This document shows positions 35,028 through 37,599 of a stretch of DNA of 39,943 nucleotides, one piece after another; the first letter of the stretch is position 1, and each line of letters begins with the position of its first letter. The stretch is from Spirochaetota bacterium (lineage in GTDB: Bacteria > Spirochaetota > Spirochaetia > DTKZ01), in NCBI GenBank assembly GCA_026418195.1, contig JAOABU010000121.1, positions 1-39,943 of the forward strand. The letters run 5' to 3'. Below the pieces are notes generated by a model. The model ran no database searches. It had not been told where the DNA came from and saw only the letters and a list, made by a program, of their open reading frames with translations. The position numbers and the translations under genes are program-made.

Positions 35028-35636
35028 ATGGGTAGTGAATCGAATCTGTCAGAACCCCGGTACCTTGCAGGATATTTTCTCATTGCTAGCGTGAACCTTA
35101 TGGACCCCAACTTTGTTCGTACCGTTGTTCTCCTCATTCAGCATAACGAAGAAGGTGCTTTTGGTTTAGTGTTGAATAGGCCTTCGGGTAAAGAACTCAA
35201 CGACGTGCTTCCAGAAAGTCTCGAGGGTGCTGTTCTCCATGTCCCTGTCTATATTGGGGGTCCCGTACAACAGGACTATCTTTTCGTTCTGCACTCGGGA
35301 TTAGAGAACAAACTGCTCAATCCCAATGCAACATCCCCCATTCCTGGTGTGTTTTTCGAACCTGCCACAAAACAATTGATTAGTTACCTGATCGACGAAT
35401 GGAACATTACGCCCCTAGAAGACAGACCTAAACTCCGATTGTACGCAGGGTATTCCGGTTGGGGGCCCGGACAATTGGAACGGGAATTGAGGGAAAACTC
35501 CTGGTTCGTAGTCCCCGGACATCAGAGTATCGTGTTTCATCCTGAACCAGACAATGCTTGGAAGGATGCATTGAGTCGCAAAGGGAAATACTATCGCTTC
35601 GTAGCAGAAACAGGTTATATGCCATCGATCAACTGA
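35028..35636 (+). CDS. YqgE/AlgH (UPF0301) family protein
   Basis: A 202-residue protein with the complete family pattern: GYFLIASVNLMDPNFVRTVVLLIQHNEEGAFGLVLNRPSG at the start, then YIGGPVQQDYLFVLHS and YAGYSGWGPGQLERELRENSWF. The family is widespread, cytosolic and of uncertain function, with reported links to transcription of alginate genes in Pseudomonas (AlgH). The last 22 bases overlap the end of aroDE on the other strand. It is divergent from the sphingoid genes. Confidence 0.95.
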   Translation: MGSESNLSEPRYLAGYFLIASVNLMDPNFVRTVVLLIQHNEEGAFGLVLNRPSGKELNDVLPESLEGAVLHVPVYIGGPVQQDYLFVLHSGLENKLLNPNATSPIPGVFFEPATKQLISYLIDEWNITPLEDRPKLRLYAGYSGWGPGQLERELRENSWFVVPGHQSIVFHPEPDNAWKDALSRKGKYYRFVAETGYMPSIN

Positions 35637-37105
35637 CGAGGGTACTCTTTACCCGTAAAAAGCAGGAACTGTCTAAAGGCTTGATGAATCAGCATCGCAT
35701 CCCCATAGATGACGGTACAACCAGCAGCCTTGGCTCGCTTAAGGAATCGAGTTTCCCTGGGTGCATATACCAAATCGTACACTACTTCTTGCCCCTTGAA
35801 GAATAGGTCTGGAAAAGGATCTTCCTCTTCATAGGGATGCATTCCGCACGAGGTAGTCTGCACCACCAAGTCTGGTTGAAACTGCTCCACCCTCGAGGCA
35901 CCCTCTCGATCGAGAGGGCCGGTTGTTATGGTTCCTGTTGAGAGGGAGAGGGTTTTTCCCATCTCCGCTGCTAAACTCTCGGCCTTTGCAACGGTTCGAT
36001 TGAGAATCAATACACGTGCTCCCTCTCGGGCTAACCCATACACGATGGATCGAGCTGCTCCACCAGCTCCGATCACGAGGGCTTTTTTACCCGTTACCCT
36101 AGGGAACACTCTGTTCAGAGGAACCAAGAACCCTTCCACATCCGTGTTGTACCCCTTGATGGATTTCTCCGAGAAAACTAAGGTGTTACAAGCTCCCACA
36201 GCCAGAACGCTGTCTTCACACCAGTCACAATATTTCAACACAGATTCTTTGTGAGGGATGGTGACGGAGAGACCTCTAAGGGGCAACTTTGGAGCAATAG
36301 AAAAAAACGGCTCCAGATCATCCACGGGAAAGGGAACATACACTGCATCAATCCCCAATGCATCATACCCTCGATTGTGTAGGTGAGGTGACCTACTATG
36401 GAGGACAGGGTTCCCAATGATTCCAAAAAGAGCTGTATGAGGCGTAAGGGAAGTGTATCGGTACACAGTTTTAAGTGTGATGGGATCCACTAGAGGACCT
36501 TTCGATTGGGGAGAGGTGAAGGTGAAATAGGACCCTAGATGGCTCGATAGAACCTGAAAGGGGTATCCATACGGGCCCTCCACGGCAAAACTTCTCCGCA
36601 TCCCCCATGTTTCCACGGTTCTATCGAGAATCACTCGTTCCACAATGGGACCTAGTTCTTTCCAACCAGAAGGGTTCAAGGTAAGGTGTAGGACGTCTCT
36701 TTCCTTTACGAAATCCTGTGCAAAAGGGAACGGATAGGCACTGAAATTTCTAATAGAGATCGAACGAATCACCCCTACGTCGTACGAATGAGCCACTTTT
36801 TCTAAGGTTTCATGAACTCCTCTAGGCTTATACTCCTCGTACGGTATCCGAACCATATCGAAAAGTCTTCGCTTTAAAAGAGTTCTGTAAAAGTCTATCA
36901 CAGGTTCTGCTTCGGACATTAGTGCTCTAGGTAAGGAAAGAATGCGGAACCCCTGAGTCCGCCGGGAGATGGACTCCCAATCCTCCCGTTCGGGATGTTT
37001 CAGGGTTTCTACTTCGATCTCGAATCCATCGAAGTATCCTTCGTGGCTTTGTAACCTGAGGAACACGTCATCCAATGTGCTCTCGGAAACGCGTAAGATC
37101 ACCAT
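35615..37105 (-). CDS. AroDE: degenerate dehydroquinase domain fused to shikimate dehydrogenase
   Basis: A 496-residue fusion. Residues 222-496 are an intact shikimate dehydrogenase: FGIIGNPVLHSRSPHLHN, catalytic K286 in VTIPHK, D322 in YNTD, the cofactor loop GAGGAARS, and a final GDAMLIHQAF. It reduces 3-dehydroshikimate to shikimate. Residues 1-215 resemble type I dehydroquinase by layout (FDGFEIEVE, LFDMVRIP, VGVIRSISIRNF, DVLHLTLNPSGW), but the catalytic His is replaced by R119 and the Schiff-base Lys by H140, and the arginine after the first Glu is also missing. That half is probably catalytically dead. Fusions of this kind are known in spirochaetes and chlamydiae. Confidence 0.9.
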   Translation of the reverse strand: MVILRVSESTLDDVFLRLQSHEGYFDGFEIEVETLKHPEREDWESISRRTQGFRILSLPRALMSEAEPVIDFYRTLLKRRLFDMVRIPYEEYKPRGVHETLEKVAHSYDVGVIRSISIRNFSAYPFPFAQDFVKERDVLHLTLNPSGWKELGPIVERVILDRTVETWGMRRSFAVEGPYGYPFQVLSSHLGSYFTFTSPQSKGPLVDPITLKTVYRYTSLTPHTALFGIIGNPVLHSRSPHLHNRGYDALGIDAVYVPFPVDDLEPFFSIAPKLPLRGLSVTIPHKESVLKYCDWCEDSVLAVGACNTLVFSEKSIKGYNTDVEGFLVPLNRVFPRVTGKKALVIGAGGAARSIVYGLAREGARVLILNRTVAKAESLAAEMGKTLSLSTGTITTGPLDREGASRVEQFQPDLVVQTTSCGMHPYEEEDPFPDLFFKGQEVVYDLVYAPRETRFLKRAKAAGCTVIYGDAMLIHQAFRQFLLFTGKEYPRQLIDGI

Positions 37106-37116
37106 GATCGCCTGAT

Positions 37117-37599
37117 TCAGAAATCTCCCCGATAGAGGTACATGTCCTCTACCAATCCTTCCCGGAAAAACACTCGGAGTCGTATCGGATAGGAGGGGCC
37201 CTCAAAATGGTACAGAATCCAGTCCTTCTCGGTATAGTAAGGGAAGCCCAGAATTTCTACAACCCGATCACGAGAATCCCCAATTTGAATTCCTCTCACC
37301 TTCCCTGGAAAGGAAGCAGATAATCGAATCTGCCAAACTCGGTCCTGGAACCAGAATAGGCTTACCCCTTGGGAATAGATGAACAGTACATCATCCTGCC
37401 AGGGTTCTGTACCTCTCACTGTTCCCACCTGTTGGGGAGGACCAAACCGCTGGAACCCTTCCTCCAGAGTCATGCCAAGTAGGGTTTCTGGTTCCAGGGT
37501 GTTTGGATCCATACGACCCCATTGAGCTGGGTTTGCTGTAAGGGGAAACTGTTCCAGCACCAATAACCCGAAACCCCATAGAATCAATTTCCAGTTCAC
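37117..37599 (-). CDS. Small secreted protein with two similar halves
   Basis: A 160-residue protein from a GTG start; the signal peptide (about residues 1-23, WKLILWGFGLLVLEQFPLTANP) supports this start. The mature part has two parallel blocks: GMTLEEGFQRFGPPQQVG...VLFIYSQGVSLFWFQDRVWQIRL and GIQIGDSRDRVVEILGFP...WILYHFEGPSYPIRLRVFF. Each block has a helix ending in a Gly-x-Pro turn and then three beta strands, an arrangement like BamE/SmpA folds. I do not recognise the family. It lies between manC and aroDE with gaps of 8 and 11 bases, so it is probably in their operon. Confidence 0.7.
   Translation of the reverse strand: MNWKLILWGFGLLVLEQFPLTANPAQWGRMDPNTLEPETLLGMTLEEGFQRFGPPQQVGTVRGTEPWQDDVLFIYSQGVSLFWFQDRVWQIRLSASFPGKVRGIQIGDSRDRVVEILGFPYYTEKDWILYHFEGPSYPIRLRVFFREGLVEDMYLYRGDF

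Follow-up and report, generated by a model that had tools for sequence, protein, structure and literature searches.

The closest described system is the fungal Aro1 protein of Candida albicans, in which the type I dehydroquinase (DHQase) domain is inactive and the dehydration step can be performed by a separate type II enzyme, Dqd1 (PMC9074039). According to that paper, substitutions in the DHQase domain track the presence of DQD1 across seven Candida species, in three of which the Lys is lost as well as the His, and neither E. coli AroD H143Q nor C. albicans Aro1 shows detectable dehydroquinase activity (PMC9074039). Its authors propose that selection on the Candida DHQase domain was eased by the type II enzyme, and they note that type II enzymes can serve quinate breakdown as well as biosynthesis (PMC9074039). 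Deletion of the dead domain was, in the results given there, without effect on growth of C. albicans, which argues against its being a needed scaffold in that organism (PMC9074039).

The aroDE-type gene described here lies in a 39,943-nucleotide stretch of DNA (the window; contig JAOABU010000121.1, genome G000) from a Spirochaetota bacterium, and its sequence identifies it as a bacterial, recurrent variant of the event known from Aro1 and Dqd1. As in Candida, the type I domain of a fused enzyme appears to have lost its active site and a type II enzyme, here AroQ, would take over the step. Aro1 is a fungal five-domain enzyme whose case is described there as tested by experiment, whereas the bacterial protein is a two-domain AroDE known from sequence. 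The bacterial case also differs in its many separate losses (16 changes on a tree) and in the setting of AroQ, which comes from two or more kinds of gene cluster. A search of the open-licence literature at the level of titles and abstract openings found no bacterial AroDE case of such an exchange, which is weak evidence of absence.

Table 1. Features of the aroDE-type gene and the adjoining ORF, in positions of the window
Feature	Positions	Strand	Remarks
aroDE-type gene	35615..37105	-	496 aa, ATG start at 37105
N-half, residues 1-217	36455..37105	-	Type I dehydroquinase barrel (predicted) without active-site residues; boundary approximate
C-half, residues 218-496	35618..36454	-	Shikimate dehydrogenase, conserved Lys and Asp present
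E29-x-E31 at the E-x-R position	37013..37021	-	Class alignment and strand positions
S117 in the catalytic His column	36755..36757	-	Class alignment and strand positions
H140 in the Schiff-base Lys column	36686..36688	-	Class alignment and strand positions
Q184 in the late Arg column	36554..36556	-	Class alignment
L205 in the late Gln column	36491..36493	-	Column Gln or His in intact relatives
ORF adjoining aroDE	37117-37599	-	160 aa, ends RGDF

Both domains, dehydroquinase (DHQ) then shikimate dehydrogenase (SDH), occur in one chain, which is the bifunctional AroDE architecture; the name suits the architecture and not the activity, because an active site is present in the second domain only. 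An AlphaFold model of the whole chain was confident (mean pLDDT 92.5, pTM 0.90). Foldseek matched the whole chain to Arabidopsis DHQ-SDH starting at residue 1 (E 1.1e-32), and comparison with the Arabidopsis structure gave a Z of 34.4 over 459 residues, with an rmsd of 2.4 and 28% identity. For the N-half, the predicted fold is a type I dehydroquinase barrel. The Arabidopsis enzyme (2gpt, 2o7s, 2o7q) shares domain order and whole-chain fold with the window's protein but carries Glu, Arg, His, Lys, Arg, and Gln in the aligned columns, of which the window keeps the first Glu only. Pfam DHquinase_I (PF01487) had no match in the window's genome at E <= 0.001 and none to the N-half alone at E <= 10. 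The N-half alone gave no significant Pfam match (best E 0.28, to an unrelated family) and no NCBIfam match, and it found nothing as a PDB sequence query, although a profile built from 39 AroDE proteins of the class matched the same Arabidopsis chain over its full length and bacterial type I dehydroquinases across the N-half. The type I layout attributed to the N-terminal ~215 residues in a preliminary description of this DNA agrees with the predicted fold and not with the PF01487 profile. Its claim that the shikimate dehydrogenase half is intact holds: the C-half scored 232.6 bits against TIGR00507 (cut-off 200.2) and keeps K286 and D322, invariant columns of AroDE alignment A1 that we take to be the catalytic Lys and Asp. 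A scan of the contig collection with the single window protein as query found no relative, and the alignment as query found 80 named loci in Spirochaetia and other groups; the named relatives place the window's AroDE group in Spirochaetia.

Residue columns were read from an alignment of 135 AroDE proteins of the class Spirochaetia, and the roles of the type I columns (E-x-R, His, Lys, late Arg, and late Gln) are assumed to be those of E. coli AroD. For the His, the role in AroD is confirmed by PMC9074039. The strands of the predicted structures of the window's protein and of L007, an intact relative from the sister genus, provided a second reading: S117 is the seventh residue of predicted strand 111-118, as is H118 of strand 112-119 in L007, and H140 is the third residue of strand 138-143, as is K143 of strand 141-146. 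For E-x-R, His, and Lys, pairing by strand position and pairing by alignment coincide. R119, which had been put forward as the His equivalent, was discarded, since both readings give S117; the assignment of H140 to the Schiff-base Lys column stood. Only the Arg of E-x-R is lost, the first Glu being kept. Absence of the late Arg was likewise confirmed. Absence of the late Gln was rejected as a sign of loss because His or Gln fills that column in intact proteins (His in 53 and Gln in 50 of the 117 AroQ-negative proteins). The window's N-half has eight predicted strands and none of them carries a Lys, so a different Lys at the Schiff-base place, a possibility raised at the outset, is not seen in the model. 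As read from these columns, the N-half no longer has a type I active site.

The same gene is intact in the sister genus. Genomes G005, G006, and G007 retain E-x-R, His, Lys, and the late Arg, and the sister-genus proteins L007, L008, and L009, 40-43% identical to the window's, are unlike it in keeping E-x-R, His118, Lys143, and Arg182; no AroQ was found in the genomes of these three loci. An upstream nucleotidyl transferase gene and a small conserved ORF are common to the window's gene and L007. The 160-aa ORF adjoining aroDE is present in the congeners and the sister genus and has no Pfam match at 1e-5. Among the congeners, G001 retains E-x-R and the Arg, with Arg replacing the His and Glu replacing the Lys; G002 and G003 are like the window, with His, Lys, and the late Arg gone and with E-x-E.

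If the N-half is inactive, another enzyme would have to dehydrate 3-dehydroquinate, and the preliminary description had pointed to a type II AroQ. The window's genome does encode one, as two tandem genes (AroQ1 and AroQ2) on contig C85 (10733-11140 and 11196-11603), and AroB and AroC were found as well. The congener G002 also has the AroQ pair, and none was found in the other seven of the nine family genomes. AroQ1 scores 209.0 bits against TIGR01088 (cut-off 169.85) and retains the canonical Y, N, H, D, E, H, and R, presumably the type II active-site residues, so that it looks fully active. On contig C85 (L208:91-12438), genes for a TRAP transporter, a zinc alcohol dehydrogenase, and a Gfo/Idh/MocA oxidoreductase precede the pair, together with an M24 peptidase-like gene, and a xylose isomerase-like gene lies behind it. 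The corresponding cluster of G231 (L220:1942-9998) also contains a 3-dehydro-scyllo-inosose hydrolase-like (IolN-like) gene and a separate AroE-like gene. Its gene content suggests a cluster for the utilisation of a cyclitol or quinate, and AroQ of this cassette type may serve cyclitol or quinate breakdown and not biosynthesis. In a second setting, AroQ lies in an aro cluster with a joined AroE/kinase-like chain (L075 of G161, L086 of G118, and L066 of G258), and on an AroQ tree the two settings form different groups. AroE-shikimate kinase-like chains near AroQ and other aro genes occur in both domain orders, the kinase part having been recognised by eye. The window's genome also encodes a distant AroE-like protein (L017, G000:C130:21401-22117; E 4.5e-25) that falls below the TIGR00507 cut-off.

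A survey of AroDE fusions in spirochaetes, suggested in the preliminary description, found the same losses and tied them to AroQ. PF01487 matched 231 of the 297 genomes of the class and AroQ matched 29. One AroDE was taken from each of 135 genomes, and the dyad, meaning the catalytic His and the Schiff-base Lys, was scored as lost when either residue was gone. All 18 AroQ-positive genomes in which an AroDE was found were included (none was found in the other 11), together with 116 of the 217 AroQ-negative genomes with a PF01487 match, chosen in favour of weak scores so that most of these are covered, and G003, which has no match. G289 (no usable ORF) and G047, G010, and G111 (matches to cut fragments) were left out, and G181 was unreadable at the Lys. 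The dyad was lost in 17 of the 18 AroQ-positive proteins and in 6 of the 116 readable AroQ-negative ones, 110 being intact and 1 unreadable (Fisher p 1.2e-15). The sole AroQ-positive genome with an intact dyad, G021, carries the AroQ pair. On a tree of the AroE half (132 rows, three short rows omitted, quick method), AroQ presence required 15 changes and dyad loss 16, from which the same active-site loss is read as having happened repeatedly in related bacteria. Among the 60 named loci whose ORF reaches 420 aa, the dyad was intact in 58; the two with His lost, L251 and L247, have the residues of G165 and G219 and are probably from those same genomes.

Shared ancestry, contamination, or incomplete assemblies could produce an association of this kind artefactually, a reading that we consider very improbable. 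Most of the genomes are fragmented assemblies and some AroQ-positive ones are related (G000/G002, G165/G159, and G013/G038). Yet genes overlooked in incomplete assemblies would make the link weaker rather than create it, and the link is supported by an independent-pairs test. Eleven independent pairs on supported branches of the AroE-half tree differ in AroQ; over 200 pairings, dyad loss differed in the same direction in a mean of 9.7 pairs, in the opposite direction in 0.0, and not at all in 1.3 (sign test median p 0.002, range 0.001-0.012). Also against an artefact, the AroQ pair is shared by two congeners and its dS between them resembles that of AroDE, contig C85 and the window are alike in GC (0.486 vs 0.493), and G231, whose contig C1 measures 4.84 Mb, carries AroQ together with Tyr at the His position, whereas its close relative G213 has neither.

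The six AroQ-negative losses are in G103, G001, G003, G156, G072, and G219. AroB and AroC were not found in G103, although its near relative G167 has both, and the pathway therefore seems to be lost there. AroB and AroC are present in the other five. G001 and G003, congeners of two AroQ carriers, have a completeness of 79%, G156 of 77%, and G072 of 64%; assembly gaps may account for most of these losses. G219, 94% complete and grouping with the AroQ carrier G021, is the best counter-case and is not well explained. Outside these counts, G272 (96% complete, chorismate synthase AroC not found) has a 504-aa AroDE-sized frame (L227, G272:C30:35188-35916) in which both halves look eroded; counting it would bring the AroQ-negative losses to 7. 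Neither PF01487 nor AroQ matched in 51 genomes, 10 of which had AroE-like matches.

Among the 18 AroQ-positive proteins, the His is kept in 5 and the Lys in 8. His has been replaced by Tyr, Ser, Asp, Phe, Arg, or Cys, with Tyr the commonest (8 of 18), and Lys by Arg, His, Gln, or Met. In the AroE half, by comparison, the Lys is kept in 18 of 18 and the Asp in 17 of 18. Several AroQ-positive lineages combine a retained Lys with Tyr in place of His, and there a changed mechanism could operate, but continued dehydration by the N-half through an altered active site is in our judgement extremely improbable. The window's protein has neither His nor Lys and no Lys on any strand, and the activity results cited at the start for H143Q and Aro1 (PMC9074039) also speak against it.

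Substitution rates were compared between the window's genome and G002. The N-half of AroDE has dN 0.229 and dS 0.85, the C-half dN 0.098 and dS 1.17, and AroQ1 is nearly invariant (dN 0.006, dS 0.71); with silent divergence similar, AroQ1 is thus much more tightly constrained than the N-half. The ratio of N-half to C-half dN was 2.35, 2.63, and 3.17 in three pairs of the window's genus and 0.44-2.24 in 31 hand-chosen pairs that are AroQ-negative on both sides, two of which (G036-G072 and G167-G103) each include a lost-His protein. Other AroQ-positive pairs (G165-G159, 1.08; G013-G038, 1.67; G195-G231, 1.69) lie inside the AroQ-negative range, so faster N-half evolution is not general to AroQ-positive lineages. 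N-half dN/dS within the window's genus, with codon-bootstrap intervals, was 0.269 (0.184-0.392), 0.244 (0.128-0.385), and 0.117 (0.084-0.256), the last from a pair with silent sites near saturation. Evolution of the N-half in this genus is relaxed, not neutral, and purifying selection persists.

That persistence leaves room for a new role of the barrel, such as docking AroQ1 or controlling the AroE half through a bound shikimate-pathway ligand, and in each of the 18 AroQ-positive proteins the barrel's reading frame has stayed open. The Glu of E-x-R is kept in 16 of 17 readable AroQ-positive proteins, and N-half R85, R125, G185, and Y226 (L007 ORF numbering) in 18 of 18, with the Glu, R125, and G185 favouring such a role. 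We nevertheless regard it as unlikely: neither a partner nor a ligand is suggested by the data, within the window's genus the N-half changes faster than the C-half, and the His and Lys replacements vary among lineages, a pattern that fits decay and not a single new site. Of the two fates proposed at the outset, a structural relic or a new regulator, the relic fits better. Nothing points to ligand binding or regulation, although the purifying selection still acting on the N-half leaves a regulator some small probability.

AroQ2 also lies above the TIGR01088 cut-off (187.4 bits) and has Ser for the Asp and Phe for the late His; it lacks the full set of active-site residues. Ser replaces the Asp in every one of the 12 separate AroQ2 ORFs read, and in place of the late His 10 of them have Phe, 1 has Tyr, and 1 has Cys. 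Between the window's genome and G002 (L208:11187-11621, G000:C85, and L209:1719-2153), its constraint is almost that of AroQ1 (dN 0.018, dS 1.00), and it is a probable conserved second pseudoenzyme. In two other genomes, both AroQ matches share one open frame (L216:5921-6826, G123:C109, 315 aa; L218, G180:C41:3737-4681, 370 aa), as if fused, which hints at a mixed assembly. On these two grounds, the near-equal constraint and the shared frames, AroQ1 and AroQ2 might form a mixed assembly, with the dead barrel binding 3-dehydroquinate or the assembly and passing 3-dehydroshikimate to the fused dehydrogenase or controlling it. We hold this reading to be distinctly improbable; if true, the cells would keep two conserved dead dehydroquinases of unrelated folds, the AroDE barrel and AroQ2, beside live AroQ1.

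Very probably, AroQ1 has displaced the type I site, and AroDE now works as a shikimate dehydrogenase that retains the barrel as a scaffold. The N-half would once have been a type I dehydroquinase and would have lost the ability to dehydrate 3-dehydroquinate, and AroQ1, encoded elsewhere, would perform that step in biosynthesis. AroQ1 would have arrived first, in the case of the window's genus together with a gene cluster for carbohydrate utilisation, making the type I site superfluous so that it decayed. The barrel would stay because, as a covalent part of AroDE, it must fold, and perhaps assemble, for the shikimate dehydrogenase half to work.

The label bifunctional AroDE is probably functionally wrong for 23 of the 134 readable proteins, in a sample enriched for weak profile scores. 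What began as one curiosity becomes a repeated natural experiment in which the presence of an enzyme accompanies loss of the active site of its fused analogue, not of the domain, and it allows one to ask why a domain of a multi-enzyme protein persists after its chemistry is gone.
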